From the NCBI RefSeq assembly GCF_029714285.1, contig NZ_CP121663.1:434001-498000 (forward strand): a DNA stretch of 64,000 nucleotides, read 5' to 3'. This document shows, piece by piece, positions 24,462 through 47,528 of this stretch. The notes beneath the pieces are model-generated. The model was given only the letters and a program-made list of their open reading frames with translations, was not told where the DNA came from and did no database searches. The DNA comes from Rhizobium sp. CB3090 (GTDB taxonomy: Bacteria > Pseudomonadota > Alphaproteobacteria > Rhizobiales > Rhizobiaceae). A program made the position numbers and the translations under genes. The stretch's first letter is position 1; each line of letters begins with the position of its first letter.

Positions 24462-24471
24462 AGGACAAAGT

Positions 24472-26838: not shown

Positions 26839-26856
26839 TTTTGATGAAAAAACCTC
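26839..26856. promoter_or_regulatory. Candidate operator of the moc-like locus (site 3)
   Basis: The sequence TTTTGATGAAAAAACCTCA lies in the 228-base divergent region between the sugar-binding protein (minus) and the TIM-barrel isomerase (plus). It aligns with sites at 23397 and 25691, so one regulator could control both genes here. Confidence 0.55.
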
Positions 26857-26988
26857 AGGCCGTCGGCTCGCCGCGTGCAAACACATCCGCTTTGCAATGA
26901 AATGCTGCCATGATCAAAACCCATCACCGGGCCATCTGGCAAAGAGGTGGGATTCGTGATCCGTGCAGCCCAATGATGGGGAGGCAAT

Positions 26989-30022: not shown

Positions 30023-31054
30023 TCAGGAGAAGACGATTTGCGCCTTCATAGCCCGGCTGCGGTCAGAGGCAATCTCGAAAGCACCGATCGCGTCGGCAAG
30101 CGGCACGGAATGAGTAATCAGGGGCCTGACGTCGATCAAACGCTTGCGCATCAGCTCGACGCCCACGGCAAATTCCTCATGGAAGCGGAACGAGCCGCGC
30201 AGATCCAGTTCCTTGGCCGTGATAGTTTGCATCGGCAACGTCATGTCGCCTCCAAGGCCCAACTGCACGATGATCCCGCGAGGTCTGAGCGCCGCAATCC
30301 CACCGGCAAGCGCAGCGGCAGCTCCCGAGCATTCATAAAGGATGTCGAAGGTGCCCTTGTCGGCCGAATAGGCGGCAAGCGCTTCCGGTTCTTCCTTGGT
30401 GTTGATCACCCTGTCCGCGCCGGCCTGTTTCGCAACCGAGAGCGTGAAATCCGATAGATCGGTCGCGACGATTTCCGCAGCACCGGCACGGCGGGCGGCC
30501 AGGATGGACAGGACGCCGATCGGTCCGCAGCCGGTGACGAGAACGCGTTTGCCGAGCATTTCGCCGGCGCGCTTCGTCGCGTGCAAGGTGACGGCCAGCG
30601 GTTCGGCCATCGCAGCTTCACCGGTCGTCAGGCCGTCGGCGGGGACACATTGAATGGCATCGGCGACCAGCGTTTCGCGGAACGCGCCTTGAATATGCGG
30701 AAAAGGCATGGCGCTGCCATAAAAGCGCATATTCAGGCATTGATTATGCAGGCCTTGCTGGCAATAGCGGCAGGTCCGGCAGGGGCGCGACGGCGAGACG
30801 GCAACGAGCTGGCCGACTTCGAGACCCTGAACGCCAGCGCCGAGGGCCGTGATCGTTGCACTAACCTCGTGGCCCAGGATCATCGGCTGCTTCAGGCGCA
30901 CGGTGCCGAAGCCGCCATGGTTGTAGTAATGTAGATCGCTGCCGCAAATCCCGCCGGTGGCGAGCCGCAGCTTGACTTCACCTGCACCCGGCTCCTCGTC
31001 CGGATACTCCTCGATCCGCACATCCTTGGCGGCGTGAGCGACGATGGCCTTCAT
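30023..31054 (-). CDS. idnD: L-idonate 5-dehydrogenase (zinc alcohol dehydrogenase family)
   Basis: The 343-residue enzyme has the catalytic zinc site GGICGSDLHYYNHG and GHEVSATI, the structural zinc cysteines CRTCRYCQQGLHNQC, and the NAD site VTGCGPIGVLSI near residue 174. IdnD oxidises L-idonate to 5-keto-D-gluconate. The downstream partner reaction, by IdnO, is encoded across the divergent promoter. GAGGAG precedes the ATG at 31054, which is 10 bases from the end of the 2-hydroxyacid dehydrogenase gene. Activity on other polyols such as sorbitol cannot be ruled out. Confidence 0.88.
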   Translation of the reverse strand: MKAIVAHAAKDVRIEEYPDEEPGAGEVKLRLATGGICGSDLHYYNHGGFGTVRLKQPMILGHEVSATITALGAGVQGLEVGQLVAVSPSRPCRTCRYCQQGLHNQCLNMRFYGSAMPFPHIQGAFRETLVADAIQCVPADGLTTGEAAMAEPLAVTLHATKRAGEMLGKRVLVTGCGPIGVLSILAARRAGAAEIVATDLSDFTLSVAKQAGADRVINTKEEPEALAAYSADKGTFDILYECSGAAAALAGGIAALRPRGIIVQLGLGGDMTLPMQTITAKELDLRGSFRFHEEFAVGVELMRKRLIDVRPLITHSVPLADAIGAFEIASDRSRAMKAQIVFS

Positions 31055-31064
31055 GTCTTTCTCC

Positions 31065-32012
31065 TCAAAGAACCGGGGTGAGCAGCGGCTGGCCGGCAAA
31101 ATGGGCGGCAAGATTGTCGCGGACAAGCTGGCCCATGGTCTTGCGCGTCTCGATCGTGCCCGAGGCGTGGTGTGGCTGCAGAAGCACATTGTCCAGCGCC
31201 AGAAAACGCGGATTGAGCTTCGGCTCGCCTTCGAAGACGTCGAGTGCCGCCGATCCGAGCTTGCCTGCTTCGAGCGCGTCGAGCAACGCTTCCTCATCGA
31301 TATTGGAAGCGCGCGATATGTTGATCAGCATGCCTTCCGGACCAAGCGCCTCGATGACATCGCGCCCGACGATATGGCGGGTCGCGGCCGAGGCGGCCAG
31401 CGTTACGAATAGAAAATCGGATTGCTCCGCAAGTTTGACCGGATCGCTCACGAATTCCATGTCGTTTGCGTAAGGTTTCGCCTCGACATCGGAATAGGCG
31501 ATCTTCATGTCGAAGCCTTTCAGCCGTTTGGCGACCTCGAAGCCGATCCGGCCAAGGCCGAGAACGCCGGCTCGCCGTCCCCAGACACGCCGCTTCAACG
31601 GATAAAGACCCTTGCTGACCCAGCTTCCGTCCCGCACCCATGTCTCGGCGCCGAGCATGCCACGCGATTGGCAGAGCATCATAGCGACACCTAGATCGGC
31701 AACATCGTTGGTCAACACGTCGGGCGTGTTCGTCACGCGAATGCCTCGTTCCCGGCAGGCGTTAAGATCGACTGCGTCGAAGCCCACACCGTAGACAGAG
31801 ATCAGTTCAAGGTTTGGACAGGCCTCGATCATGGCCTTGTTTGCGCCGAGCTCGCCGCGCGTGGCAATTGCTCTTATGGATGGCCCGACTTCCGCCAGAA
31901 ACGCGAGTTTGTCTGCGGCCTCGAAATAACGGTGGGCGCGAAACGCCGCGTCGAGGGGTTCCTGGTCCCATTGCGGATAGGGACCTACCTGCAGGATTGC
32001 CGGCTTTTCCAT
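31065..32012 (-). CDS. D-2-hydroxyacid dehydrogenase (2-ketoaldonate/hydroxypyruvate reductase type)
   Basis: The 315-residue protein has the D-isomer dehydrogenase layout: VYGVGFDAVDLNACRERGI, Rossmann motif VLGLGRIGFEVAKRLKGF near residue 148, catalytic Arg in NISRASNIDE, Glu in FEGEPKLN and His in QPHHASGT. Family members include GhrB/TkrA-type reductases that interconvert 2-keto-L-gulonate and L-idonate or 2-ketogluconate and gluconate; that reaction would feed IdnD and IdnO here. It leads the minus-strand operon, 38 bases from the operator palindrome. Confidence 0.85.
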   Translation of the reverse strand: MEKPAILQVGPYPQWDQEPLDAAFRAHRYFEAADKLAFLAEVGPSIRAIATRGELGANKAMIEACPNLELISVYGVGFDAVDLNACRERGIRVTNTPDVLTNDVADLGVAMMLCQSRGMLGAETWVRDGSWVSKGLYPLKRRVWGRRAGVLGLGRIGFEVAKRLKGFDMKIAYSDVEAKPYANDMEFVSDPVKLAEQSDFLFVTLAASAATRHIVGRDVIEALGPEGMLINISRASNIDEEALLDALEAGKLGSAALDVFEGEPKLNPRFLALDNVLLQPHHASGTIETRKTMGQLVRDNLAAHFAGQPLLTPVL

Positions 32013-32049
32013 CTTTTCGATTCCTCCCTTGATACTGGCTTGACACTGG

Positions 32050-32065
32050 ATGTTATCGATAACAT
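32050..32065. promoter_or_regulatory. Perfect 16-bp LacI-type operator ATGTTATCGATAACAT
   Basis: This perfect palindrome lies between the divergent 2-hydroxyacid dehydrogenase and gluconate 5-dehydrogenase genes. An identical copy precedes the ABC transporter at 45949, and a close variant precedes the LacI regulator at 34702. TGTTATCGATAACA resembles gluconate-repressor type operators. Confidence 0.85.
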
Positions 32066-32107
32066 AAACAAGGCCACCGGCATTTGTCGAGATGAAAAAA
32101 GGAGAAA

Positions 32108-32869
32108 ATGGTGTCTCTTGGCCTCTTCGATCTAAAAGGACGGCGCGCGCTTGTGACGGGTTCGTCGCAAGGCATCGGTTTGGCTCTTGCCCAGGGATTG
32201 GCGGCTGCGGGCGCCGAACTGGTGCTCAACGGCCGCGACGTAGAAAAGCTCACGAAAGCCGCGGCTCTGTTTGACGGCAAAGCCCGGATCTTGCCCTTCG
32301 ACGCAACGGATCATGAGGCTGCTCGTCATGCCATCGATGATTTCGAAAGCAAAACCGGCGCCATCGACATATTGGTGAACAATGCGGGCATGCAGTACCG
32401 CACGCCCCTGGAAGATTTTCCCGCGGACGCATTCGAACGGCTTCTTCGAACCAATATATCGAGCGTTTTCAATGTCGGTCAGGCTGTTGCACGCCACATG
32501 ATCAAACGTGGCGCCGGCAAGATCATCAATATTGCCAGCGTCCAGACCGCGCTGGCGCGGCCCTCCATCGCACCCTATACCGCCACCAAGGGCGCAGTCG
32601 GCAATCTCACCAAGGGCATGGCGACGGATTGGGCGAAATACGGACTGCAATGTAACGCCATCGCGCCGGGCTACTTCGACACGCCATTGAATGCGGCGCT
32701 GGTCGCCGATGCCGATTTCTCGGCTTGGCTTGAAAAGCGCACGCCGGCCGGGCGCTGGGGTAATGTCGAGGAACTGGTCGGCGCCTGCATTTTCCTTGCC
32801 TCCGATGCATCCTCTTTTGTCAACGGACATGTGCTTTATGTTGACGGCGGCATCACAGCGTCACTCTAA
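32108..32869 (+). CDS. idnO: Gluconate 5-dehydrogenase (5-keto-D-gluconate reductase), SDR family
   Basis: The 253-residue short-chain dehydrogenase has the cofactor motif VTGSSQGIGLALA near residue 15, NNAG at 92-95, the catalytic Ser in IINIASVQTA and the Tyr/Lys pair in PYTATKGAVGNLTKG. The family signature AKYGLQCNAIAPGYFDTPLN fits IdnO/Ga5DH proteins. It reduces 5-ketogluconate to gluconate, which the next gene's kinase phosphorylates. It is the first gene of the plus-strand operon, 42 bases from the operator. Confidence 0.9.
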   Translation: MVSLGLFDLKGRRALVTGSSQGIGLALAQGLAAAGAELVLNGRDVEKLTKAAALFDGKARILPFDATDHEAARHAIDDFESKTGAIDILVNNAGMQYRTPLEDFPADAFERLLRTNISSVFNVGQAVARHMIKRGAGKIINIASVQTALARPSIAPYTATKGAVGNLTKGMATDWAKYGLQCNAIAPGYFDTPLNAALVADADFSAWLEKRTPAGRWGNVEELVGACIFLASDASSFVNGHVLYVDGGITASL

Positions 32870-32870
32870 A

Positions 32871-33380
32871 ATGATGCGGCCGCAACGGTTCGTTATCATG
32901 GGCGTTTCCGGCTGCGGCAAATCATCTGTCGGCGCAGCGCTCGCCTATCAGTTGTCGGGCATATATATCGATGGCGACGACCTTCATCCCGCGGCGAACG
33001 TCGCCAAGATGAGTGCGGGTGTGCCGCTCACCGACGCGGACCGGTGGCCGTGGCTGAACAGCGTCGGGGAGCGTCTTACCCAAGCCGAGGGAACGGCGCT
33101 GATCGGGTGTTCGGCGCTGAAGCAGATCTATCGCGACAGGATTCGCGCAGCCGTCGATGGGCCCGTGCGTTTCATCCATCTTGCTGGGAAAAAGGAAGTG
33201 ATTGCTGCTCGCCTGCAGGCGCGGCAGGGACATTTCATGCCGGCGGCTTTGCTCGAGAGCCAGTTTGCTGCACTTGAGCCGCCTGGGCCGGGGGAGCACG
33301 CAATCACCGTCGATATCGATCAACCGTTTGATGCGGTCATAGCGGCTGTTATCGCCGCGCTGGAGGAGGAAGACCTATGA
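32871..33380 (+). CDS. gntK: Gluconokinase
   Basis: The 169-residue kinase has Walker A IMGVSGCGKSSVG near residue 9, the gluconate-site segment IYIDGDDLHPAANVAKMSAGVPLTDADRWPW, and CSALKQIYRDRIR. These are hallmarks of thermoresistant gluconokinases, with normal length for them. It makes 6-phosphogluconate for the Entner-Doudoroff or pentose phosphate route. The start ATG is one base past the idnO stop, and the stop overlaps the next gene (ATGA), so the operon is tightly coupled. Confidence 0.95.
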   Translation: MMRPQRFVIMGVSGCGKSSVGAALAYQLSGIYIDGDDLHPAANVAKMSAGVPLTDADRWPWLNSVGERLTQAEGTALIGCSALKQIYRDRIRAAVDGPVRFIHLAGKKEVIAARLQARQGHFMPAALLESQFAALEPPGPGEHAITVDIDQPFDAVIAAVIAALEEEDL

Positions 33381-34264
33381 GCAGCAAAGTTGCGCTGATC
33401 GGCGCGGGCGCGATGGGCGGAGCCATCGGCGCGCGCCTTGTGGAGACCGGAAATCACCTGACGGTCTTCGATCTCGACAGCGAAAAAGTGGGCGCGCTGA
33501 CGGCCAAGGGAGCCAGTGCTGCGGCAAGCGCCGCCTTGGCCGCTTCCGTATCGGACTATGTCATTCTCAGCCTGAACTCGCCGCGGATCGTGCGTGCTGC
33601 GGTCTTCGGCCCTGGCGGCGTCGCGGAGGGCGCCAAGCCCGGAACGCTGATTATCGACATGTCCTCTATAGATCCCGATGCAACCAAGGAGCTAGCGGCG
33701 GACGCTCAGGAGAAAGGCCTGCGCTGGGTGGATAGCCCGCTTTCGGGCGGTGCGCCGAAGGCCCTGATCGGCCAATTGACGCTGATGGCCGGCGGCCGCG
33801 ATGAGGACGTCAAGGATGCGCATGAGGTGCTTCGACACGTCGCCTCGAACTACACCCATATGGGCCCGCCCGGTGCCGGCCAGACGACGAAACTGATCAA
33901 CCAGGTGCTCTGCGCGCTAAACTTTCTCGCTGTCGCGGAAGCGACCCAACTGGCGCTCGACGCCGGCGTCGATGCCGCCAAGATCCCGCAGGCACTGAAA
34001 GGCGGACGAGCCGACAGCGCCATCCTCCAGGAATACATGCCGCGTTACGTCGCCAAGGACTACCGCCGGACGGGCCGCATCGACAACATGGTCAAGGATC
34101 TTAACGGTGCGCAAGATCTCGCCCGACGCACCAACACAGCCATGCCGCTGACGGCCGTCTGCGCGGAAATACACCGCATGCTGACGGCAGCCGGTCTCGG
34201 CGGCGAGGACCAGGCGGCGTTGATGGAATTTTTCAAAGGGCCGAACAAGGAGATCGCCGAATGA
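33377..34264 (+). CDS. 3-hydroxyisobutyrate dehydrogenase family oxidoreductase
   Basis: The 295-residue beta-hydroxyacid dehydrogenase has the NAD motif GAGAMGGAIGARL at residues 9-21, the substrate loop DSPLSGGAPKALIGQLTLM, and the catalytic lysine in GAGQTTKLINQVL near residue 175. The family acts on hydroxyisobutyrate, tartronate semialdehyde, threonate or 6-phosphogluconate. Inside a gluconate operon it may act on a C4-C6 sugar acid; the substrate is not visible. It overlaps genes on both sides by four bases. Confidence 0.87.
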   Translation: MSSKVALIGAGAMGGAIGARLVETGNHLTVFDLDSEKVGALTAKGASAAASAALAASVSDYVILSLNSPRIVRAAVFGPGGVAEGAKPGTLIIDMSSIDPDATKELAADAQEKGLRWVDSPLSGGAPKALIGQLTLMAGGRDEDVKDAHEVLRHVASNYTHMGPPGAGQTTKLINQVLCALNFLAVAEATQLALDAGVDAAKIPQALKGGRADSAILQEYMPRYVAKDYRRTGRIDNMVKDLNGAQDLARRTNTAMPLTAVCAEIHRMLTAAGLGGEDQAALMEFFKGPNKEIAE

Positions 34265-34593
34265 TTACTCGATACGCACTATTCGAAGGCAAGGTTAAGG
34301 ATGGCGAGGCCGACGCATTTCGCGACGCCGTCATTGAGACCATTCTGCCGAAATGGAAGCAATTTCCCGGTGCTCTGGATGTGCGCGTGTCCTTTGCAGA
34401 AGCCCGAGACGAAGGCGCACCGGAATATCCGATGATTCTGGCCGTCAACTATCCCGACATGGCTGCAGTCGAAGCAGCACTTGCAAGCCCGGTTCGCGCC
34501 GAAGCCCGCGCGGCGACAGAGGCAGTGCTGTCCCGGTTCTTTGAAGGACGCATTCATCACCACGTCACGGTCGCCCACGAATTCGTGCTTTAA
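34261..34593 (+). CDS. Small dimeric alpha/beta-barrel (ABM/EthD-like) protein
   Basis: The 110-residue protein has the ferredoxin-like dimeric barrel pattern, starting MITRYALFEGKVKDGEADAF, with the conserved segment PGALDVRVSFAEARDEGAPEYPMILA and the histidine-rich GRIHHHVTVAHEF near its end. Members act as monooxygenases, mutarotases or isomerases on small molecules. It is the fourth and last gene of the gluconate operon, before a strong terminator. Its role is unknown; a sugar mutarotase-like function is possible. Confidence 0.75.
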   Translation: MITRYALFEGKVKDGEADAFRDAVIETILPKWKQFPGALDVRVSFAEARDEGAPEYPMILAVNYPDMAAVEAALASPVRAEARAATEAVLSRFFEGRIHHHVTVAHEFVL

Positions 34594-34618
34594 ACTCATT
34601 CTGCCCTGCCAATGCTGG

Positions 34619-34644
34619 TGCGGAGCCGGAAGGCTCCGCATTTT
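34619..34644 (+). terminator. Rho-independent terminator of the gluconate operon
   Basis: A perfect 9-bp stem TGCGGAGCC/GGCTCCGCA with a GGAA loop is followed directly by TTTTCATTT. It lies 26 bases past the last gene of the plus-strand operon. Confidence 0.85.
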
Positions 34645-34701
34645 CATTTCAGGATGGCGAAGGGTGCCTCTTGCTATTTAAAGTAAAGGCATATTACTCT
34701 C

Positions 34702-34717
34702 ATGGTAACGATAACAT
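34702..34717. promoter_or_regulatory. LacI-type operator variant ATGGTAACGATAACAT
   Basis: The site matches the 16-bp palindrome at 32050 at all but two positions, both in the left half. It ends ten bases before the regulator's ATG, so it probably mediates autoregulation. Confidence 0.75.
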
Positions 34718-34726
34718 AGGCCATCA

Positions 34727-35737
34727 ATGAGTAACACTCGCAAACCGCCGACCATGGCAGACGTAGCCCGCGTCACCGGGGTCTCCCCGATGACGGTATC
34801 GCGCGCATTCAAGGCCGATAGCCTGATCAGCAAGGAGAGACGAGAGGCCATCCTCCGGGCTGCCGAGGATCTCGGTTATGTTTTCGATAGCACGGCCTCC
34901 AACCTGCGTTCGCAGAAGTCCGGTTTCGTCGCGGTGACGATTCCTTCGATCAACAACGCCAATTTCGCCGACACCGTCGGCGGGCTTTCGGATACGCTCG
35001 CCGCGCGCGACATGCAGATCCTGTTGGGGTACACCAACTACAACATGCAGGAGGAGGAGCGGCTCATCGAGCAGCTCTTGCGCCGCAAGCCGCAGGCCAT
35101 TGTCGTGACCGGCGGCAGGCATACGGAACGCGGCCGACGTCTGTTGGAGACGGTCAATATCCCGGTGATCGAGACTTGGGATATTCCCGCCGAGCCGATC
35201 GACCATTACGTCGGATTTTCCAATGCCAACGCAGTTCGCGACATGGTGGATCACTTCGTCCGCGCCGGCTATCGTCGCATCGCCTTCATCGGTGGCGATG
35301 TCGGGCGCGACACGCGCGGCAGCGAGCGGCGGATTGGCTTTGCCGCCGCAATGCAAGTGCACGGGCTCGATGCATCGCGCCTGATCGCCGCCGGACTGCC
35401 GCCCATTTCGATGCGGGAAGGGGCGAACGCGATGGCAAAGCTGATCGAGATCTATCCGGATACCGAAGCCGTCGTCTGTGTATCGGACCTTGCGGCTTAT
35501 GGCGCGCTGACCGAATGTCGTCGCTTGGGCGTTCCCGTGCCGGAGCGTTTTGCGATCGGCGGCTTCGGCAATTACGAGATCGGCGAAGTCTGCGTGCCCA
35601 CATTGACCACGATCAATGCCTTCGCACGCGAAATCGGTGAAAAGACCGCACGATTGATCCTCGATATCCTCGATGGCAAGCAGGGTGTCAATGTCAGGAT
35701 CTCGCCCGAACTGATTGTGCGCGACAGCAGCCGATAG
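34727..35737 (+). CDS. gntR: LacI-family repressor of gluconate/idonate genes (GntR type)
   Basis: The 336-residue protein has the LacI helix-turn-helix TMADVARVTGVSPMTVSRAFK at residues 9-29 and a sensor domain with PSINNANFADTVGGLSDTLAARDMQILLG, which is typical of gluconate-utilisation GntR/IdnR repressors. It sits right after the gluconate operon, and three matching operators (32050, 34702, 45949) lie in this window. The symbol refers to the LacI-type GntR, not the GntR/FadR superfamily. Confidence 0.88.
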   Translation: MSNTRKPPTMADVARVTGVSPMTVSRAFKADSLISKERREAILRAAEDLGYVFDSTASNLRSQKSGFVAVTIPSINNANFADTVGGLSDTLAARDMQILLGYTNYNMQEEERLIEQLLRRKPQAIVVTGGRHTERGRRLLETVNIPVIETWDIPAEPIDHYVGFSNANAVRDMVDHFVRAGYRRIAFIGGDVGRDTRGSERRIGFAAAMQVHGLDASRLIAAGLPPISMREGANAMAKLIEIYPDTEAVVCVSDLAAYGALTECRRLGVPVPERFAIGGFGNYEIGEVCVPTLTTINAFAREIGEKTARLILDILDGKQGVNVRISPELIVRDSSR

Positions 35738-35770
35738 AGATTAGGTGATCTCGATCGGTCTGTGTTCATA

Positions 35771-36973
35771 TTACATGCTCGCGGCCCTCGGCATGGCCAA
35801 TGTCTTTTTGACGATAGAGCCGTTATCCGTTCGCTCAATTTCCATACCTTCAAGGTCGAGGTCGGCGACCACTGTCCAGAGATGATAGAGCGAGCTGGCT
35901 GGTATCGAGTTCGCGACCAGATTTCCAGAACTGTCGAAACAGTCTCTCCACATGCCGTATGGCGCATGACTTAGATATTCCGTCATAATTTGTGTCGCGA
36001 GTTCGCGCGCATTCTTTAAATTGACTGGATCGTTTTGCGCTGCATACTCGGTGATATAAGCTTTGAGCAATTCAGTTTGTGGCCACAGGCGCCTCGTATT
36101 TTTGGAAATGCGTCCGTCATCAAAAAACTCATCGAGAATAAACGGAATGGTCGCTTCACTGAGACAACGCTGAGATGCAGCGAGGAGATTCGAGCAAAGT
36201 TGCGTATGATCTTCTTTCGCCAGCTTTTCATATCGCCGAATTAACCAAACCCACTCTGCCATGTGGCCGGGCTCAATTCGATCTGAGCCATATTCCTTTG
36301 AGATTTCCCACGCAGGGCCAAAAAACTCGCGGAGCAGACCAAATTTCCGATCGTAAAACTGCGTCTGAAATAGTGCGAAAATGTCGTGGGCGCGAGCGAT
36401 ATAGCGGTAGGATCCATCCGTCTCCCACAGCGCAAGACAAGCTTCGAAAAAGTGCATATGAGGATTCTGTCGGCGCGGTAGATTACCGCTCGCGGTCTCT
36501 GCCCAACCACCAAAATCTGCTGCAAGCGTTTTGTCGATTGCAGACAGTGTCTCATCCGCAACCGATTTATAGAGGTTGTTTCCGGTCGCCTTGAAGAGCC
36601 ACGCAAGAGCGAGAAGAACACAGGACTGATCATAAAGATCTATCTCCGGATCCACCACGCGAGAGGCTTTTCGATCGAATGAGCGGACAAATCCGGACCG
36701 TTCGCCAGGCATCCAACAGGTACTTCTTAAGCTATCGAATGCAATTTGCGCTTTATCCAATGCCTCTCTGGGCGCAGCATTTTGGCAATAGGCATGGGCG
36801 AACACATAAATCTGGCGCGCAGAGGTCCGAGTTCGCACTACCGTGCTGCCCGTCCGAGATCCATCAAGGGCCAACGCTTCCACAAACTGGCAGGCGTCGT
36901 CATCGAAGGCCAATTTGAGCCAAGCTGGAAGTATAGTGTCGATCAGATGTGTCTTAAGAGCAAGCAACGGCAT
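35771..36973 (-). CDS. AGE-family sugar epimerase/isomerase
   Basis: The 400-residue protein is an (alpha/alpha)6-barrel enzyme of the N-acylglucosamine 2-epimerase / mannose-6-phosphate isomerase-like family: RTSARQIYVFAHAY, NPHMHFFEACLALWE, EPGHMAEWVWLI and RLWPQTELLKAY carry the conserved His, Glu and Arg residues of the active site. The start is uncertain: ATG at 36973 or GTG at 36994, neither with a strong ribosome site. Its GC content is visibly lower than that of its neighbours and it is convergent to the repressor gene, which suggests separate acquisition. Confidence 0.85.
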   Translation of the reverse strand: MPLLALKTHLIDTILPAWLKLAFDDDACQFVEALALDGSRTGSTVVRTRTSARQIYVFAHAYCQNAAPREALDKAQIAFDSLRSTCWMPGERSGFVRSFDRKASRVVDPEIDLYDQSCVLLALAWLFKATGNNLYKSVADETLSAIDKTLAADFGGWAETASGNLPRRQNPHMHFFEACLALWETDGSYRYIARAHDIFALFQTQFYDRKFGLLREFFGPAWEISKEYGSDRIEPGHMAEWVWLIRRYEKLAKEDHTQLCSNLLAASQRCLSEATIPFILDEFFDDGRISKNTRRLWPQTELLKAYITEYAAQNDPVNLKNARELATQIMTEYLSHAPYGMWRDCFDSSGNLVANSIPASSLYHLWTVVADLDLEGMEIERTDNGSIVKKTLAMPRAASM

Positions 36974-37404
36974 AATAAGTTCTTTGAAAGTCACTCGGAT
37001 CTGATCGGGTCTTTACGTTGCTGACTTAAAATGCCGCAATCGCTTGGAGACGGTGTGGGCTAAAGGGGAGCACCGGTTGGCTTCAAGAATTCATTTAGTA
37101 AGGTGCCCAATAAAAAATCACTGAACGGTGAGAACCCAAGTGCCTGTATCCGCTCGAATTGTCACAATCAAGGCGTGAAATTCAAATCGCACAGCTCCGA
37201 TAAAAGAGCATAAACACCGGTGAGTAGTTGTTTTCGAATGCGTTAAAGTGACCCTATAAAAAAGCCGATTGCGAGCCCTCGGTTGCCGCTGCGGTGGCAT
37301 GGAAAGCACGACGAATGCGCCCTATCTCTTTGATAGGGCTCGTGGCGGCTACAGAGACGACCACCGTCGCAATCGGGCAGCGCGAGCGGAAAGGGAAGGA
37401 ACAG
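36974..37404. other. Long divergent intergenic region before the bkd operon
   Basis: About 430 bases separate the epimerase gene from the acyl-CoA dehydrogenase gene. The only structure noted is a hairpin at 37319-37339 (GCCCTATC/GATAGGGC, 5-base loop), which would lie in the 5' leader of the bkd transcript. No protein-coding frame is supported. The promoters of both flanking genes must lie here. Confidence 0.5.
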
Positions 37405-39829
<2,425 letters not shown>

Positions 39830-39831
39830 GA

Positions 39832-40845
39832 ATGACCAGGATGACGATGATCGAGGCGGTGCGCAGCGCCATGGACGTCTCGATGGCGCGGGACGACAAT
39901 GTCGTCGTTTTTGGTGAGGATGTGGGTTATTTCGGTGGCGTCTTCCGATGCACGCAGGGGCTTCAGGCGAAATATGGCAAGACGCGCTGTTTCGACACGC
40001 CGATAAGCGAATCGGGCATCGTCGGCACGGCAATCGGCATGGCCGCCTATGGCCTGAGACCCTGTGTCGAAATCCAGTTCGCCGATTACATGTATCCGGC
40101 CTATGACCAGCTAACGCAGGAGGCGGCACGCATCCGCTACCGCTCCAACGGGGATTTTACCTGTCCGATCGTTGTGCGCATGCCGACAGGCGGCGGCATC
40201 TTTGGCGGCCAGACGCACAGCCAGAGCCCGGAGGCACTTTTCACCCATGTCTGCGGGCTGAAGGTGATCGTGCCATCCAATCCCTACGACGCCAAAGGCC
40301 TGCTGATCGCTGCGATCGAAGATCCGGATCCAGTGATGTTTCTGGAGCCGAAGCGGCTCTATAACGGCCCCTTCGACGGCCATCACGAGCGGCCGGTGAC
40401 GGCTTGGTCCAAACATGAGCTCGGAGAGGTGCCTGAGGGCCACTACACGATCCCGATCGGCAAGGCCGAGATTCGGCGGGCAGGCTCAGCGGTAACCGTC
40501 GTCGCCTATGGCACGATGGTGCATGTGGCGCTCGCCGCGGCCGAGGATGCCGGCATCGATGCCGAAGTGATCGATCTCAGGAGTTTGCTGCCGCTCGATC
40601 TGGACACGATCGTCAATTCGGTCCGGAAGACCGGACGCTGTGTTGTCGTGCATGAGGCAACGCTGACTTCGGGCTTTGGGGCCGAGGTCGTAGCGCTGGT
40701 TCAGGAAAATTGCTTTTACCATCTGGAGGCGCCAATCGTGCGCGTTGCCGGCTGGGACACGCCTTATCCGCACGCGCAGGAGTGGGATTACTTCCCAGGC
40801 CCTGCCCGTCTCGGACAGGCGCTTATCGAAATCATAGGGGCCTGA
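39832..40845 (+). CDS. bkdA2: Branched-chain 2-oxoacid dehydrogenase E1 beta subunit
   Basis: The 337-residue protein has a transketolase pyrimidine-binding domain (VVVFGEDVGYFGGVFRCTQGL with the cofactor Glu; GIVGTAIGMAAYGLRP) and a C-terminal transketolase domain (AEVIDLRSLLPLDLDTI; HEATLTSGFGAEV). It completes the E1 heterotetramer with BkdA1. Its gene lies between bkdA1 and bkdB with three-base gaps. Confidence 0.95.
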   Translation: MTRMTMIEAVRSAMDVSMARDDNVVVFGEDVGYFGGVFRCTQGLQAKYGKTRCFDTPISESGIVGTAIGMAAYGLRPCVEIQFADYMYPAYDQLTQEAARIRYRSNGDFTCPIVVRMPTGGGIFGGQTHSQSPEALFTHVCGLKVIVPSNPYDAKGLLIAAIEDPDPVMFLEPKRLYNGPFDGHHERPVTAWSKHELGEVPEGHYTIPIGKAEIRRAGSAVTVVAYGTMVHVALAAAEDAGIDAEVIDLRSLLPLDLDTIVNSVRKTGRCVVVHEATLTSGFGAEVVALVQENCFYHLEAPIVRVAGWDTPYPHAQEWDYFPGPARLGQALIEIIGA

Positions 40846-40848
40846 GCC

Positions 40849-42075
40849 ATGAGCGAATTTGTCATCGAGATGCCTGATGTAGGGGAGGGAGTTGCCGAGG
40901 CCGAGCTCGTGGAGTGGTTCGTGAAGGTAGGAGATCCTGTTCGCGAGGACATGGTGGTTGCCGCCGTCATGACAGACAAAGCCACCGTGGAAATCCCATC
41001 TCCCGTCAACGGTATTGTCACCTGGCTTGCCGGTGAGGTCGGAGAGCGTATCGCGGTCAACGCCGCGCTGGTGCGTATCGATACAGCCGGAGATACCGGC
41101 GGAGCTCGGTCCGAGGAGGGCCTAGAGACAACTATCGAAGTGACGAAGGCGGAGCTTCCAAAGCCTGCTCCAACAGCGTCGCATTCAGTGACGCCGCAAA
41201 CCGAAAAGCCACTTGCCGCGCCGCCGGTGCGGCTCTTCGCCAAGGAAAGCGGTATCGACCTCGCACAAGTGCAAGGAACTGGACCAGCCGGCCGCATCCT
41301 GCGAGAGGACATCGAGCAATTCTTGAGCCACGAGGCCGCTCCCACAAGGCCAAGGGGCGGCTTTGCCAAGGTGGCTCCGAACGAAGAGATCAAACTGACC
41401 GGGCTGCGCCGCCGGATCGCCGAGAAAATGGCACTCTCCGCCTCGCGTATTCCTCACATTACCTATGTGGAAGAGGTGGACATGACCTCGCTCGAGGAAT
41501 TGCGCGCCACCATGAACGCCGACCGCAAGCCGGATCATCCGAAACTGACGGTTCTGCCTTTTCTGGTACAGGCGGTGGTGAAGGCCATTTCCGAGCAGCC
41601 CGATGTCAATGCTACCTTTGATGACGAAGCCGGCATCATCACGCGCTATGGCGCGGTCCATATGGGTATCGCAACGCAGACGCCGGCCGGTTTGACCGTG
41701 CCTGTCGTGCGGCATGCGGAAGCACGCAGCATCTGGGATTGCGCCGCTGAGATGAACCGGCTGGCGGAGGCGGCGCGATCCGGCACTGCGACGCGTGATG
41801 AGCTTTCCGGCTCGACCATTACCATCAGCTCGCTCGGGGCGCTCGGCGGCATCGTCTCCACGCCAATCATCAATCATCCGGAGGTGGCGATTATCGGCGT
41901 CAACAAGATCGCCATACGGCCGGTCTGGGACGGCACGCAGTTCGTACCGCGCAAGATGATGAATCTCTCGTCCAGCTTCGATCATCGCATCGTGGACGGT
42001 TGGGATGCGGCGACATTCGTGCAGCGCGTCCGCACGCTGCTCGAAACGCCGGCGCTCATTTTCATCGAAGGTTGA
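40849..42075 (+). CDS. bkdB: Branched-chain 2-oxoacid dehydrogenase E2 (dihydrolipoyl transacylase)
   Basis: The 408-residue protein has one lipoyl domain with the lipoyl lysine in MTDKATVEIPSP near residue 44, an alanine/proline-rich linker, a peripheral-subunit-binding domain (VRLFAKESGIDLAQVQGTGPAGRILREDI), and a CoA-acyltransferase domain ending in SSSFDHRIVDGWDAATFV with the catalytic His and Asp. It moves the acyl group to CoA. The E3 gene (lpd) that normally completes the set is not in the window; the next gene is convergent. Confidence 0.95.
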   Translation: MSEFVIEMPDVGEGVAEAELVEWFVKVGDPVREDMVVAAVMTDKATVEIPSPVNGIVTWLAGEVGERIAVNAALVRIDTAGDTGGARSEEGLETTIEVTKAELPKPAPTASHSVTPQTEKPLAAPPVRLFAKESGIDLAQVQGTGPAGRILREDIEQFLSHEAAPTRPRGGFAKVAPNEEIKLTGLRRRIAEKMALSASRIPHITYVEEVDMTSLEELRATMNADRKPDHPKLTVLPFLVQAVVKAISEQPDVNATFDDEAGIITRYGAVHMGIATQTPAGLTVPVVRHAEARSIWDCAAEMNRLAEAARSGTATRDELSGSTITISSLGALGGIVSTPIINHPEVAIIGVNKIAIRPVWDGTQFVPRKMMNLSSSFDHRIVDGWDAATFVQRVRTLLETPALIFIEG

Positions 42076-42154
42076 GATCATCAAAGCGTTCGAAACTCTT
42101 GTCGTATGCAGAGCCGTTTTTCCGCTGTTGACGCAGGAGGTTGTCAGCAGTCTG

Positions 42155-42176
42155 AGCGCGGCCCGAAGGCCGCGCT
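42155..42176. terminator. Bidirectional terminator hairpin
   Basis: A perfect 9-bp stem AGCGCGGCC/GGCCGCGCT with a CGAA tetraloop lies between the convergent ends of bkdB (42075) and the sugar-binding protein gene (42196). There is no T-run on either side. Confidence 0.65.
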
Positions 42177-42195
42177 GTTCTCGATCGAAAAGGGA

Positions 42196-43290
42196 TCATT
42201 TACCCCAGATCTTCTTGTATTGGTCCTTGTAGCCGTTATCAGGATCAAACGTGTTCTTCGGGCCGCCATCGGACTGGATATTGTCTGCCGTTACCACATG
42301 CAGCGGCGAGAGATAGCCGGACCATTTTTCGCCGGAAAACGCGCGATTGAGTTCGTCGACCAGTTGCCAACCCTGGAGGTTGAGGGGTTCGGCCACCGTG
42401 ACCTTCTGGAATTGACCGGCGCGGATGCGTTCATAGGCCGATTGCGAGCCGTCGCCGGCGGCGACATTGATCGGCGCATCGGTGCCGCTCTTGCCGGCGG
42501 AGGCGAGAGACGGGCCCATGAAGTCGAAATAGAGGTCATTGATCGCAAGCGAATGGGTCCAGCTATCACCGTATTTCTGCAGGAGCGAGGTGGTAAGCTG
42601 CGGCATGCGCTGCGATGTCTCGGCGATCGGGGTATCGACATATTCGAGCACCTTGCCGCCAAGCCGTTCGATTTCCTGCTTCATCTTGTCCGCCTTGGCG
42701 ATGGCGATCGCATAGGTAGAATCCGTGAAGATGATGACGCCGGGCTTGCCCTTGGCATCGACGAAGGCCCAGTCGGCCGCCGCTTTCGAGACTTCCATCG
42801 CATCGGTGCTGACATTGGCGAAGAGACCGTTCTTGTCATCGGGACCGATGACCGGTCCGGCATGCCATGCGACCAACGGGATCTTGGCGGCCTTTGCTTG
42901 TTCCAGGGCCGGGGCCTGCTCGACGGCATCGAAGCCATCGATGATGATGCCGGCAGGCTGCAGCGCTATGGCCTGACCGAAGGCAGCCGTGCGTCCGCCG
43001 ATAGAGCCCGCGCCGTCAAGAACCTTCACCTGCCAGCCGATCGCCTTTGCTGCTTCCTCGACACCGTTGCTGACGCCGAGAATGCCGCCATTCTTGAGGT
43101 CGCCAGCCAAGACGACGATGGTCTTGCCGGCCTGTGCCTTCGGGCCGGTGGTCGGGCCGTCCCATTTGGTGACCGGCGTTGCATATTTTTCAACGACGGC
43201 TTTCGCATCGGCCATCGGATCCGCATAGGCCTGGCCTGCACACAGCATCAACAGACCGGTAGTCGCTTGCAGGAAAAATCTGCGTTTCAT
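42196..43290 (-). CDS. Sugar ABC transporter substrate-binding protein
   Basis: The 364-residue protein begins with a signal peptide containing a twin arginine (MKRRFFLQATTGLLMLCAGQAYA) and folds as a type I periplasmic binding protein (GKTIVVLAGDLKNGGILGVSNGVEEAAKAIGW; PAGIIIDGFDAVEQAP; PLVAWHAGPVIG). It is the last gene of a three-gene transporter operon whose promoter carries the gluconate-type operator. A sugar acid such as idonate, gluconate or a ketogluconate is therefore the likely ligand; this is inference. Confidence 0.87.
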   Translation of the reverse strand: MKRRFFLQATTGLLMLCAGQAYADPMADAKAVVEKYATPVTKWDGPTTGPKAQAGKTIVVLAGDLKNGGILGVSNGVEEAAKAIGWQVKVLDGAGSIGGRTAAFGQAIALQPAGIIIDGFDAVEQAPALEQAKAAKIPLVAWHAGPVIGPDDKNGLFANVSTDAMEVSKAAADWAFVDAKGKPGVIIFTDSTYAIAIAKADKMKQEIERLGGKVLEYVDTPIAETSQRMPQLTTSLLQKYGDSWTHSLAINDLYFDFMGPSLASAGKSGTDAPINVAAGDGSQSAYERIRAGQFQKVTVAEPLNLQGWQLVDELNRAFSGEKWSGYLSPLHVVTADNIQSDGGPKNTFDPDNGYKDQYKKIWGK

Positions 43291-43331
43291 TTCATTCTCC
43301 TCCCTTTGAAAAAATTAAACCAAGATGATCT

Positions 43332-44402
43332 TCAGTTATCGATCGCCTTAGCCGATAGCTGCGGTTTTTGTGCTGGAGCCATTCGTCCGGCATGGCTCCG
43401 GCGACGCTGCGCGTAGCCGGCGATCCCGATGGCGACGAGCAGGGTCACGCCGTTGAAAAGTGGCTCCACATAGAACGAGCCTCCGAACTGCTGGATACCG
43501 GCAATACCGACGGCCAGAATGATGACGCCAATCATGGTGCCCCAGACATTGACGCGGCCGGGTTTGATGGTCGTGGAGCCAAGGAAAGCGCCGACGAGCG
43601 CCGGCAGAAGATATTCCAACCCGACGCTGGCCTGGCCGATGCGCAGCTTGGAAGCGAGCAATACGCCGGCGATGGCAGCGAGCGTGCCCGACGTTACGAA
43701 GGCGCCGATGACGAAGCGGCGGACCGGAATACCGTTCAAGGCGGCCGCCTTCGGATTGGCGCCGATGGCATAGATGTAACGGCCGATCGGCAGATATTCG
43801 AGTACGATCCACATGACGAAGGCGAGGCCGAGCACATAGATCCCGGTGATCGGAAGCCCGAAGACCATCGTCCCGTTAAGCGCATAAAAGCCCTGCGGGA
43901 GCATGCCGACCACCTGTCGTCCGCCGGTATGCCACAAAGCGATGGCATAGAGCACGGTGCCGGTTCCGAGCGTTGCGATGAAGCTGTCGATCTTGGCGAT
44001 TTCCACCAGCAACCCGTTCAGGAAGCCGGTCAGGGCGCCGAGCAGGATGACGATCAGCACGGCCACCGGCCAGGGCAGGCCGAACATTGTCTGCAAGCTG
44101 ATCGCCAGGACATGCCAGAGCACGATGCCGTAACCGATCGTCAGGTCGATGCGTCCTGCCGCCATCGGGATCATCGCAGCCAATGACAGAATGGCGATGA
44201 TCGTCTTGTCAGAGATGATCGAGCGCAGATTGAGCAGCGTCGGAAAGGTCTGCGGCAGCAGAATGGAAAACAGCAGGATCAGAAGGGCCGTAAGAATAAC
44301 GAGGCCGTAGACCGGCAGGAGGCGCTGGATTTTCTGGCCGAAGCTCATTCCCGCAAGCTCGGCGCTGGTGGGTTCGAGCGCATTGGATTCGATCGATTGC
44401 AT
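43332..44402 (-). CDS. Sugar ABC transporter permease (RbsC type)
   Basis: The 356-residue protein has about nine hydrophobic helices and the BPD_transp_2 pattern, including IDLTIGYGIVLWHVLAI, LNGLLVEIAKIDSFIATLGTGT and the coupling-helix region NPKAAALNGIPVRRFVIGAFVTSGTLAAIAG. It is the membrane channel for the ATPase upstream and the binding protein downstream in this operon. Confidence 0.9.
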   Translation of the reverse strand: MQSIESNALEPTSAELAGMSFGQKIQRLLPVYGLVILTALLILLFSILLPQTFPTLLNLRSIISDKTIIAILSLAAMIPMAAGRIDLTIGYGIVLWHVLAISLQTMFGLPWPVAVLIVILLGALTGFLNGLLVEIAKIDSFIATLGTGTVLYAIALWHTGGRQVVGMLPQGFYALNGTMVFGLPITGIYVLGLAFVMWIVLEYLPIGRYIYAIGANPKAAALNGIPVRRFVIGAFVTSGTLAAIAGVLLASKLRIGQASVGLEYLLPALVGAFLGSTTIKPGRVNVWGTMIGVIILAVGIAGIQQFGGSFYVEPLFNGVTLLVAIGIAGYAQRRRSHAGRMAPAQKPQLSAKAIDN

Positions 44403-44417
44403 GAGTTCCTCCCTGGA

Positions 44418-45914
44418 TCAGGCCGCTTCGGATGCGGATGCCGCGGCGATGACCGCCGGTGTTGTTAACTCGGCGCCGCTCAGTTCCCGGACGATTTGGC
44501 CGCGCGAGAACACCAGGGCGCGATGGCAGATATGAGCGATTTCTTCGAAGTCCGTGGAAACGACGAGCACAGCCAGCCCATCTTCAACGGCTTCTGCGAT
44601 CAGCTTGTAGATGTCCGCCTTGGCGCCGACATCCACGCCGGCTGTCGGGTCTTCGGCGATCAACAGCTTTCGGCCCGTCGCAAGCCACCGACCGACGACC
44701 ACCTTCTGTTGATTGCCGCCGGACAAGGCTTCGATCGCCAGGTTCTGATCGTTGGGTCTAAGGCCGACACGGCTGCCGAGCGAATAGGCCATGTCGGCCT
44801 CGCGCTGCGGCGGCAGGAAGGACATCATGCCCCGCCCGGATGCACCGGGATTGAGGAAGGTGTTTTCTCTCAGGCTAAGAGACATGGCGACAGACTCTTC
44901 CGTTCGATCCCTGGCAATCAAGCCAATACCCGAAGCCATGGCTGCGACCGGGCTGGAGAGATCGGGACTTGCGCCGTTCAGCAGGACCGTTCCGCTGGAG
45001 GTCTCGCAGCCGAAGAGGGCGCGCCCGATCAATTCCTGGCCTGCACCTCGCAATCCGACAAGACCGAGAAGCTCTCCTTGCCGAATGTCGAAGGACACCG
45101 GACCGGCGCCGCGGCAGGTAAGACTTTTGACCGAGACAATGGCAGGACCGGCGGTTCGTTCTGCCTTGACGAAAAGCTGGTCGGCCTTGCGTCCCACGAT
45201 CATTCGGATCAGCTCATCCGGCGACGTGTCGGAAACCGGTTTTTGCCCGACCAGTTGGCCGTCGCGCAGCACGGCGACCCGATCGGCGATCTTGAAAATT
45301 TCATCCAGCCGGTGCGAGACATAGATCATTGCAACACCGCGCTCCTTGAGCGGGCGGATGGCAGCAAACAGCTTTTCGACTTCATCGGCCGGCAAGCTCG
45401 CCGTCGGCTCGTCGAGAACTAAAACGTCCGCCTCGACGGCGAGAGCGCGAGCAATCGCCACCAGGGACTTTTCGGTTCGGGTCAGCTCCTGGATCCGCGT
45501 CGACGGATCGAAATCGCAGCCCACAAGCTTCAGGGCTTCCGCCGTGCGGCGTTCGGTTGCGCGCCAGTCGATCAGTCGGCCGCGCAACGAATAGCCTTGC
45601 GCGAGGCCGACATTTTCGCCGACTGTCATCCATTCGATCAGGCCTAGATCCTGATGGATGAAGGCGATCGGCTGGCGCTGGTTTGGTTTCGGCGGACGGT
45701 GATGGTACGGCTTGCCGCGAAACAGGATCTGTCCGCCATCCGGTCTGTAGATCCCCGCCAGCGTCTTGATGAGGGTCGACTTTCCAGCGCCGTTCTCACC
45801 GAGAAGTGCCAGGATTTCTCCGGGTTTCAGATCGAGTGAGACATTCGACAGGGCGCGTGTTCCACCAAATTCTTTGGTGATATCGCAAAATTCGAGCAGC
45901 TTTCCGTCGTCCAT
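44418..45914 (-). CDS. Sugar ABC transporter ATP-binding protein (RbsA type, two ABC domains)
   Basis: The 498-residue protein has two ABC domains. The first has Walker A GENGAGKSTLIKTL and Walker B VLVLDEPTASLP, with its signature changed to LTRTEKS. The second has a degenerate Walker A (GLRGAGQELIG), an intact signature LSGGNQQKVVVGRWL and AEDPTAGVDVGAK. This asymmetry is normal for RbsA/MglA/AraG. It leads the operon, with the operator palindrome 35 bases before its ATG. Confidence 0.92.
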   Translation of the reverse strand: MDDGKLLEFCDITKEFGGTRALSNVSLDLKPGEILALLGENGAGKSTLIKTLAGIYRPDGGQILFRGKPYHHRPPKPNQRQPIAFIHQDLGLIEWMTVGENVGLAQGYSLRGRLIDWRATERRTAEALKLVGCDFDPSTRIQELTRTEKSLVAIARALAVEADVLVLDEPTASLPADEVEKLFAAIRPLKERGVAMIYVSHRLDEIFKIADRVAVLRDGQLVGQKPVSDTSPDELIRMIVGRKADQLFVKAERTAGPAIVSVKSLTCRGAGPVSFDIRQGELLGLVGLRGAGQELIGRALFGCETSSGTVLLNGASPDLSSPVAAMASGIGLIARDRTEESVAMSLSLRENTFLNPGASGRGMMSFLPPQREADMAYSLGSRVGLRPNDQNLAIEALSGGNQQKVVVGRWLATGRKLLIAEDPTAGVDVGAKADIYKLIAEAVEDGLAVLVVSTDFEEIAHICHRALVFSRGQIVRELSGAELTTPAVIAAASASEAA

Positions 45915-45948
45915 CCTGCTCCTCCCAAAGTTCAGGTGAGAAGAGGCT

Positions 45949-45964
45949 ATGTTATCGATAACAT
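45949..45964. promoter_or_regulatory. Perfect 16-bp LacI-type operator ATGTTATCGATAACAT
   Basis: The site is identical to the one at 32050 and lies in the promoter of the RbsABC-type transporter operon. It places the transporter in the same regulon as the idonate/gluconate genes. Confidence 0.85.
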
Positions 45965-46388
45965 TCCGTCAAGAGGCTTCGCGTCGTAAGCGTGAACTCC
46001 CGGCTATGGATGGCTGGCGGAGGGAGCCTGCGCCTTATCGCGCAGGCCGGGGCAAGAAATGGTAAGTCGCTCCAGGACATGTCGCATTGAGGATGGCCAA
46101 GTGAAGCTCGGCTGAACGGAACGCAAATGTGGCAAGCGTTATTTAATACTTAAAATACATTTGCGAAGCCACATCGAAGCCGATTGTATTATTTTTTTCT
46201 ACCTTTCATTATTTGAGTATTCATGGCAGGAAAGGTAAGCGCCGCTTCAGCGGGGAGTTTTCTCAGCGTTTTCGGGAGTGTCAAGAAAACGGCATAAATT
46301 CAACTGGATAAGCACTGAAAATGGATTGCGTTGCGCGGTAAGTCGACCCGAGTTCCCGAAAATATATTGCTTATTGCAGGTAGTAATA
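45965..46388. other. Intergenic region between the transporter operon and IS630
   Basis: The left part has a hairpin at 46026-46047 (GCCTGCGC/GCGCAGGC, 6-base loop). The right part (46130-46260) is AT-rich with a T8 run and no supported gene. A 76-codon plus-strand frame at 46278-46508 crosses into the IS630 end and has no recognisable homology. Confidence 0.5.
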
Positions 46389-46467
46389 CCGAGGCTCAAT
46401 GATGTTGACTCAACGGATTCCGTTTTTGGTCAAATCATGATTCAACATGGCGGAAGGAGATTTCGCC

Positions 46468-47528
46468 ATGGGAACAGCACTGAAGATCCGCGAGGACTAT
46501 ACGGCTGATGAATTGCGTCGGCTGGCGAGGCAGAGCCGGGATGCAGATTGGTCCCGCCGGTTGCTTGCCTTGTCGGTCATTTACGAGGGCGGTTCGCGGA
46601 GCCAGGCGGCGTCGATTGGCGGGGTGGGTTTGCAGATCATCCGCGATTGGGTTGAGCGTTTCAATCTGCACGGTCCTGATGGTCTGAAGACAGGCAAGGC
46701 GACGGGGCGGGAGCCCTTGCTCGATGACAAGCAGCGCAAGGCGCTTGCCGAGGCGGTCGAGAAAGGTCCTGTTCCCTATCTCGATGGCGTCGTGCGCTGG
46801 AGGCTCGTTGATCTGGTGCAATGGCTTTGGCAGGAGCATCGTGTCTTGGTGAGCCGCCAGACGCTGGGGCGCGAGTTGAATGCCATGGGCTATCGCAAAC
46901 TCACCGCACGTCCCAAGCACCATGCACAAGACCCGCAAGCGATCGAGGAATTTAAAAAAACTTCCCCGCCGCAGTGGCGGAAATCGCTGCCGGAGCCGCT
47001 AAAGGAAAACGAATAGAAATCTGGTTCCAGGACGAAGCCCGCATCGGCCAGAAGAACAAGATCACCCGTCGCTGGGCCAAGCGCGGAACACGGCCCTCAG
47101 CGCCGCACGACCAGCGCACGAGATCGGCCTATATCTTCGGTGCGATTTGCCCGAAGCTCGGCAAGGCCGCCGCACTCGTCATGCCGTGGTGCGACACCTA
47201 TGCCATGAACCAGCATCTGATGGAAATCTCCCGCCATGTCGCCGAAGACGCCCACGCTATCCTCATCATGGATCAGGCGGGCTGGCACATGTCCAACAAT
47301 CTCACCGTGCCCGAAAACGTCACCATCTTGCCGCTGCCGCCAAAGTCGCCCGAACTCAACCCGGTTGAAAACCTCTGGCAGTTCATGCGCGAAAACTGGC
47401 TCTCCAACCGCGTCTTCAAATCTTACGAGGACATCGTCGATCACTGCTGCGATGCTTGGCACAAGCTCCAACGCCAGCCTTGGCGCGTCATGTCAATCGG
47501 CCACAGAAAATGGGCCGATGAGTTCTAA
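46468..47528 (+). CDS. IS630-family transposase, two frames joined by a -1 frameshift
   Basis: The first frame (46468-47016) holds the helix-turn-helix half (SRSQAASIGGVGLQIIRDWVERF). The second (from 46974 to 47528) holds the DDE half, with WFQDEARIGQKN, ILIMDQAGWHMS and PKSPELNPVENLW carrying the catalytic Asp, Asp and Glu. The frames differ by -1 and meet at TTTAAAAAAAC (A7 at 46954-46960), a classical slippery site, so a full protein would come from programmed slippage. GGAAGGAG precedes the ATG at 46468. A simple indel is the alternative. Confidence 0.87.
46951..46961 (+). promoter_or_regulatory. Slippery site for -1 frameshifting in the IS630 transposase
   Basis: TTTAAAAAAAC contains seven A bases at the point where the homology passes from the first to the second transposase frame. 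Confidence 0.65.

Follow-up and report, generated by a model that had tools for sequence, protein, structure and literature searches.

A predicted LacI-family regulon linking idonate/gluconate catabolism to an ABC transporter through a shared palindrome in Rhizobium sp. CB3090

In the nitrogen-fixing Rhizobium sp. CB3090, a shared 16-base palindrome probably places a set of idonate/gluconate catabolic genes and a three-gene ATP-binding cassette (ABC) transporter under one LacI-family regulator. We analyzed a stretch of 64,000 nucleotides from this genome (contig NZ_CP121663.1, positions 434,001 to 498,000; hereafter the window), in which the palindrome lies between the divergent catabolic operons, before the regulator gene, and before the transporter operon. 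We consider, with a probability of about 0.8, that a GntR/IdnR-like LacI repressor jointly controls the uptake and catabolism of C6 sugar acids through this palindrome. The binding, the repression, the inducer, the enzyme activities, and the ligand are inferred from sequence comparison.

Operator sites in the window and the genome

The palindrome, ATGTTATCGATAACAT, is AT-rich. Exact copies are located at 32050–32065 (Operator 1), between the divergent hdh-idnD and idnO-gntK operons, and at 45949–45964 (Operator 3), preceding the transporter operon. A copy with two mismatches (Operator 2, 34702–34717) lies 5′ of the regulator gene and ends 9 bases before the LacI start codon. The original prediction, made from the window alone, had claimed exact palindromes at 32050 and 45949 and a two-mismatch variant at 34702 before the LacI gene; all three sites are borne out by mismatch scans of the window and the whole genome, and the gene coordinates given with them are correct. 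The −35-like element CTTGAC is found 5 bases before Operator 1 (32039–32044, plus strand), facing idnO, and 3 bases before Operator 3 (45968–45973, minus strand), facing the transporter.

The rarity of the palindrome should be noted. The window contains four matches with up to three mismatches, versus 0.13 expected; the fourth, a three-mismatch copy at 34878 within the LacI coding sequence, is probably due to chance. In the genome of 6,487,703 bases, the palindrome occurs exactly at two places and with two mismatches at one, all within the window, and no other place has two mismatches or fewer. Three-mismatch places number 26, one of which is in the window. A crude longest-open-reading-frame model puts 22 of the other 25 inside predicted open reading frames and 3 between them. 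No sugar-acid gene lies beside the three intergenic places, as far as neighbors can be judged by eye, and under the same crude model and inspection none of the 25 places is a candidate for a further regulon member.

Conservation of the sites in related loci

Relatives were found by a binding-protein scan of named genomes, and the best 80 of 386 loci (74–100% identity) were kept. Every one of the 80 loci carries the palindrome 5′ of the ATPase gene, with 56 exact copies and 19, 2, and 3 copies having one, two, and three mismatches, respectively. It is also present upstream of idnO in all 64 loci readable there (56 exact; 4, 3, and 1 with one, two, and three mismatches); in the remaining 16, the gene is absent or cut (13 loci) or the upstream sequence is missing (3 loci). 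The LacI gene is missing from 8 of the 80 loci and the lactonase (SGL) gene from 24. Within 220 bases upstream of the LacI gene, a copy with zero to three mismatches is found in 61 of 72 loci, and one with four mismatches in 2. For the lactonase gene, a palindrome with one to three mismatches lies within 220 bases upstream in 44 of 56 loci, 9 of which share it with the transporter site, and the window's own lactonase has no upstream palindrome with up to three mismatches.

All 113 exact palindromes in the 1.586 Mb of related loci are upstream of the transporter or idnO/hdh, and none of 200 composition-matched permuted palindromes occurs in the same sequences. The columns of the transporter operator are 85–100% conserved, compared with 28–73% in the flanks (76 of the 80 rows, four rows with short flanks being left out). 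At the transporter, 78 of the 80 loci carry TTGAC within 15 bp 5′ of the site, extended to CTTGAC in 70; at idnO, TTGAC is so placed in 55 of the 64 loci and CTTGAC in 44. In neither case does the element occur on the opposite side (0/80 and 0/64).

Co-occurrence and gene neighborhood

We counted the components in 60 genomes of the same genus, taking the binding protein at E ≤1e-60 and the site at one mismatch or fewer; since the genomes are related, the numbers are not independent. The LacI search scored up to 36 candidates per genome, with a cut at 49% identity; the best matches of G035, G036, and G038, at 38–40%, fall below it. The binding protein is found in 38 genomes, the site in 40, and a LacI match, before the identity cut, in 42. 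A LacI protein of at least 49% identity and the site occur together in 39 genomes, the site alone in 1, LacI alone in none, and neither in 20. In the genome with the site alone (G052), the 17 kb retrieved contain no idn genes. The binding protein and the site occur together in 37 genomes, with the protein alone in 1 (55% identical) and the site alone in 3.

IdnD, IdnO, or GntK is encoded within 10 kb of the binding protein in 71 of the 80 loci, and the gene order varies by group. In the R. tropici group, LacI and the transporter are convergent. The transporter comes directly after a gluconokinase and a reductase in many Mesorhizobium loci and in R. leguminosarum 248, where it runs in the same direction as the preceding gluconokinase and NAD-binding reductase. 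Martelella and Aureimonas have still other orders. Together, the conserved sites, the neighborhood, and the co-occurrence support what had been proposed from the window alone, namely that a single LacI regulon joins idonate/gluconate catabolism and the ABC transporter.

The LacI-family regulator and the proposed mechanism

The regulator gene (34727–35737, plus strand) encodes a GntR/IdnR-like protein with the domains of that family, a LacI-type helix-turn-helix and a periplasmic-binding-like effector domain (in Pfam, LacI at 44.9 bits and Peripla_BP_3 at 107.4 bits, each exceeding its cut-off). Its best NCBIfam match is Pseudomonas GntR (277.6 bits), and E. coli IdnR is also near, both below the cut-off; the scores are 277.6 against 400 for NF052440, 200.9 against 500 for NF047913, and 144.6 against 433 for NF011563. 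Since the curated scores are not reached, we file the protein as working like GntR/IdnR rather than as GntR or IdnR proper. The segment MTVSR in the recognition helix of the helix-turn-helix is common to E. coli GntR, IdnR, and the orthologues shown (44–98% identity), with the exception of one misaligned row (L111). Upstream of E. coli gntK, the sequence CTGTTATCGGTAACAT differs from the palindrome by two mismatches; the half-site is alike and the center is different. The MTVSR segment, the gntK site, and the co-occurrence suggest that the protein encoded at 34727 is the likely binder of the palindrome.

In the proposed mechanism, the regulator would bind ATGTTATCGATAACAT as a dimer at three places, that is, in the divergent region between hdh-idnD and idnO, before its own gene, and before the importer. 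A repressor bound just downstream of the −35-like CTTGAC would exclude RNA polymerase at the idnO and importer promoters, and the weaker site 9 bases before the regulator start codon may cause mild autoregulation. Release of the repressor by a sugar acid or its phosphate, for example 6-phosphogluconate, would let uptake and catabolism rise together. The importer would take in a C6 aldonate or ketoaldonate; the hydroxyacid dehydrogenase, IdnD, and IdnO would interconvert 2-ketoaldonate, L-idonate, 5-ketogluconate, and D-gluconate; and GntK would produce 6-phosphogluconate.

The transporter and its predicted ligand

The transporter consists of a substrate-binding protein of the CUT2 type (42196–43290; Peripla_BP_4, 84.6 bits in Pfam), a permease (43332–44402; BPD_transp_2), and a double ATPase (44418–45914; ABC_tran in two stretches), encoded adjacently on the minus strand. 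This composition is that of a CUT2 importer. The binding protein matches that of Rhizobium leucaenae USDA 9039 at a rounded identity of 100%, and the AlphaFold model of the window protein (predicted local distance difference test score, pLDDT, 86.0) has a standard sugar-binding fold. The solved structures among the matches listed are 14–22% identical and bind ribose, glucose/galactose, arabinose, and others; with such distant relatives and such varied neutral sugars, the fold gives no ligand.

The operator, the regulator, and the neighboring genes point instead to a sugar acid as the ligand. The transporter most likely imports sugar acids, an assignment at the level of the substrate class, with gluconate, idonate, and 5-keto- and 2-ketoaldonates as candidates, and the conservation of the site, the gene neighborhood, and the phyletic co-occurrence support the original prediction of such a substrate for the transporter at 42196–45914. 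A more specific proposal, to which we give an even chance, is that the binding-protein family of about 74–100% identity (Rhizobium, Sinorhizobium, Mesorhizobium, Agrobacterium vitis, Martelella, and Aureimonas) forms a dedicated high-affinity importer of C6 aldonates and ketoaldonates (L-idonate, 5-ketogluconate, and D-gluconate), with a conserved 110-residue protein acting as a lactone/keto-acid isomerase of the same pathway. If so, these bacteria would take up with the help of a binding protein the substrates for which E. coli and Pseudomonas use single permeases.

The regulon biology is of a known kind, and the substrate class for a transporter family often bearing the name of ribose is the useful part. 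The class is testable for a family that is present in many rhizobia and often annotated as ribose-specific, with a likely regulator, operator, and pathway named. Gluconate and idonate uptake may matter to plant-associated bacteria near roots; in grapevine, the breakdown of vitamin C reportedly proceeds through idonate (PMC6827314). Among the matches listed in a literature search, which lay mostly outside subscription literature and is not proof of absence, no report of this transporter was found, and the phrase "gluconate ABC transporter" does not occur in the same body of literature. Just upstream of the transporter promoter region, two overlapping frames at 46447–47528 encode a transposase (HTH_33 and DDE_3), which we take to be IS630-like.

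Contrary evidence and alternative explanations

Several observations weigh against a joint regulon or limit its reach. Many of the 80 loci are close relatives, and the counts are therefore not independent. Three of the 39 genus genomes with the regulator (G028, G048, and G058) have no transporter orthologue at the locus, and in G048 an orphan exact operator directly follows LacI, as if the transporter had been naturally deleted, with a 50% binding-protein match elsewhere. Nine of the 80 loci lack IdnD, IdnO, and GntK within 10 kb, four of them cut by contig ends and five at full length. No site with up to five mismatches is found before LacI in 9 of the 72 loci having this gene. TTGAC precedes the site on the hdh side in just 17 of 62 loci and before LacI in 1 of 60, so that the promoter geometry holds for idnO and the transporter only. 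The regulator and IdnD fall below all the listed curated NCBIfam cut-offs, and the best promoter sites in the E. coli idn region are four mismatches from the palindrome. Moreover, a 65% identical relative in Phaeobacter lies near L-rhamnonate dehydratase genes (cluster downstream) and a 54% identical one in Leisingera beside other genes, indicating that the ligand is not transferable family-wide.

Two side observations concern these loci. In L174, an exact operator (10126–10141) remains after the LacI gene where the transporter is gone, and this lone operator is likely the result of a natural deletion. In the Phaeobacter relative (L178, 6174–6349), GntR-like inverted repeats, ACGTTACCCGTAACAT, are found before the ATPase gene.

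An AT-rich 16-base palindrome can recur, but a chance repeat is extremely improbable and was rejected, judging from the window expectation (four seen versus 0.13), the uniqueness in the genome at two mismatches or fewer, the presence at the same promoter in all 80 loci, and the control with permuted palindromes. It is unlikely that the transporter is an importer of ribose or another neutral sugar that happens to share the operator. Its architecture and fold are RbsABC-like, the closest solved folds listed include ribose-binding proteins, and 24 of the 120 listed homologues are named "ribose transport system substrate-binding protein" by the Joint Genome Institute (NCBI mostly gives "substrate-binding domain-containing protein"). 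However, the low identity to the listed solved relatives noted above speaks against ribose, and the listed NCBIfam ribose models score below the cut-off for the ATPase (394 versus 745 for RbsA) and the permease (111.4 versus 398), while the binding protein has no NCBIfam match at E ≤0.001. In a weak phmmer alignment to 2ioy (E 1.9e-05), PFF is replaced by GGI, DR by HA, and AQQP by AEPL, and AQN retains its N and GFDG its DG; these stretches presumably hold ribose contacts of RbsB, several of which would thus be altered. The sugar-acid enzymes neighboring the transporter in 71 of 80 loci also disfavor a neutral sugar.

The identity and the mode of action of the regulator leave two further alternatives. 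The main binder of the palindrome might be not the 34727 regulator but a different LacI paralogue, or a pair of paralogues with cross-talk. In ten of the 80 loci (L116, at 11205–12260, and L090, L091, L093, L095, L096, L097, L099, L103, and L105), a one-mismatch palindrome off the main promoters lies directly upstream of a second LacI gene (about 30% identity), which is possibly a paralogue reading the same operator and leaves room for cross-talk. This alternative is nevertheless improbable, as the second LacI is beside the transporter in only about 10 of the 80 operator-bearing loci, 39 of the 40 site-bearing genus genomes also have the 34727 orthologue, and the regulator's own gene carries the site. 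The regulator might otherwise activate the transporter genes, or control them in a dual manner, instead of simply repressing them. Annotation lists E. coli IdnR as a dual regulator, and deletion of GntR in P. plecoglossicida lowered the expression of several other genes, according to the portions consulted of PMC12195362. However, 78 of the 80 transporter promoters carry TTGAC shortly before the operator, an arrangement well suited to a repressor that keeps out the polymerase, and we regard this alternative as not likely. The second LacI in L116 and L173 is beside genes resembling, by eye, an amino-acid-type ABC operon.

Comparison with known systems

The predicted regulon resembles the E. coli GntR/IdnR regulons (gntRKU, idnDOTR, and idnK) in its LacI-family regulator with the helix-turn-helix segment MTVSR, in the half-site GTTA..TAAC found upstream of gntK (CTGTTATCGGTAACAT and ATGTTACGGGTAACTG), and in the grouping of idnD, idnO, gluconokinase, and a transporter gene. 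It differs in the operator center, which is TCGA here, and in the transporter, a single permease there (idnT or gntU, which we take to be of the GntP family) and a three-gene ABC importer here. The rhizobial locus further adds the hydroxyacid dehydrogenase, the lactonase, the 3-hydroxyisobutyrate dehydrogenase-like protein, and the 110-residue protein. Gluconate utilization in S. meliloti was reportedly treated by Steele et al. in 2009.

Pseudomonas GntR is the best-scoring curated family for the window regulator, though below the cut-off. According to parts of PMC12195362 and PMC5902321, GntR of P. aeruginosa and P. plecoglossicida is autoregulated and controls gluconate uptake, and that of P. 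plecoglossicida also controls gluconokinase; PMC5902321 reviews P. aeruginosa GntR as dissociating from DNA once it binds a sugar acid or 6-phosphogluconate. The Pseudomonas operator given in these parts, AG-N2-AGCGCT-N-TCT or AC-N-AAG-N-TAGCGCT, is unlike ATGTTATCGATAACAT, and the Pseudomonas transporter is GntP. Ravcheev et al. 2014 (PMC4052901) described LacI regulons by comparative genomics, and the main-text portions covered here report seven orthologous groups of gluconate/idonate regulators and autoregulation in 72%. The approach and the kind of result are the same as for the present regulon, and those portions describe no rhizobial gluconate/idonate regulon with an ABC importer. The double ATPase, the BPD_transp_2 permease, and the Peripla_BP_4 protein are shared with the CUT2 sugar importers RbsABC, AraFGH, and XylFGH, whereas the window transporter is below every listed curated subfamily cut-off and its predicted ligand is acidic.

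The bkd block between the regulator and the transporter

In the window, the regulator and the transporter are separated by a block at about 35745–42155, assigned with Pfam, comprising an N-acetylglucosamine-2-epimerase-like gene and a bkd operon (acyl-CoA dehydrogenase, E1α, E1β, and E2). In R. tropici-group loci without this block, the alignment runs from the LacI end (about 35733–35744) straight to about 42155–42196. The transporter operon of the window ends with a terminator-like inverted repeat (42156–42175), and a nearly identical hairpin lies between LacI and the binding protein in three of six block-free loci (L067, L079, and L083); L068, L087, and L088 have other sequences in its place. 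The bkd genes (BkdA1) are found within 10 kb in 2 of the 80 loci, R. leucaenae and R. calliandrae, and Shinella sp. HZN7 has a bkd E1α gene some 9 kb from the transporter, at a different place.

Since the block is absent from the R. tropici-group loci, the most plausible cause of the separation is an insertion in the group of the window, a reading that rests on the outgroup comparison. The transporter had been described as lying 13 kb away past a bkd operon. The block does lie between, but the distance does not characterize the system, as the R. tropici-group transporter adjoins the regulator. An inserted operon can thus conceal a regulon whose genes stand together in relatives. Membership of the bkd operon itself in the regulon was rejected, because it contains no site with up to three mismatches and the R. 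tropici-group loci lack it at this position.

The catabolic genes and the conserved 110-residue protein

On the minus strand to the left of Operator 1 are the genes for a D-2-hydroxyacid dehydrogenase (hdh, 31065–32012), an L-idonate 5-dehydrogenase-like protein (idnD, 30023–31060), and an SMP-30/gluconolactonase-like lactonase (29078–29968; Pfam SGL, 166.9 bits). The first matches Pfam 2-Hacid_dh_C and, below the cut-off, NCBIfam GhrB (152.8 bits versus 492); it is a candidate 2-ketoaldonate reductase. The best NCBIfam match of IdnD is L-idonate 5-dehydrogenase, at 359.7 bits with a cut-off of 469, and its R. leguminosarum 248 orthologue is annotated as this enzyme. Further to the left, at 23424–26886, are a gene that appears LacI-like by eye and a second Peripla_BP_4 binding-protein gene.

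On the plus strand, idnO (32108–32869) encodes a 5-ketogluconate reductase-like short-chain dehydrogenase/reductase (SDR), which exceeds the cut-off of NF005711 (487.9 bits versus 413) and falls below that of gluconate 5-dehydrogenase, NF005983 (298.2 versus 408). It is followed by a gluconokinase (gntK/idnK, 32868–33380; TIGR01313, 201.8 bits, cut-off 113.75) and a 3-hydroxyisobutyrate/tartronate-semialdehyde reductase-like protein (33377–34264; Pfam NAD_binding_2 and NAD_binding_11) that is below every listed NCBIfam cut-off. Among the ten proteins scanned and the models shown, a curated cut-off is reached by just two, the gluconokinase and the SDR; the results for IdnO and the ATPase cover the best 25 of 231 and the best 25 of 189 families, respectively. 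For the L-idonate/5-ketogluconate (GntII-like) pathway, the gluconokinase is therefore found at its curated score, and the L-idonate 5-dehydrogenase and gluconate 5-dehydrogenase are below theirs.

Between these genes and the regulator lies the gene for the conserved 110-residue protein (34261–34593, plus strand), which is present in 68 of the 80 loci and has no Pfam match. Its model (pLDDT 95.8) resembles a dimeric α/β barrel, and the nearest folds are EthD and 4-methylmuconolactone methylisomerase, both dimeric α/β barrels. The protein is perhaps a lactone or keto-acid isomerase, and HHH at residues 99–101 is invariant across the 24 aligned sequences.

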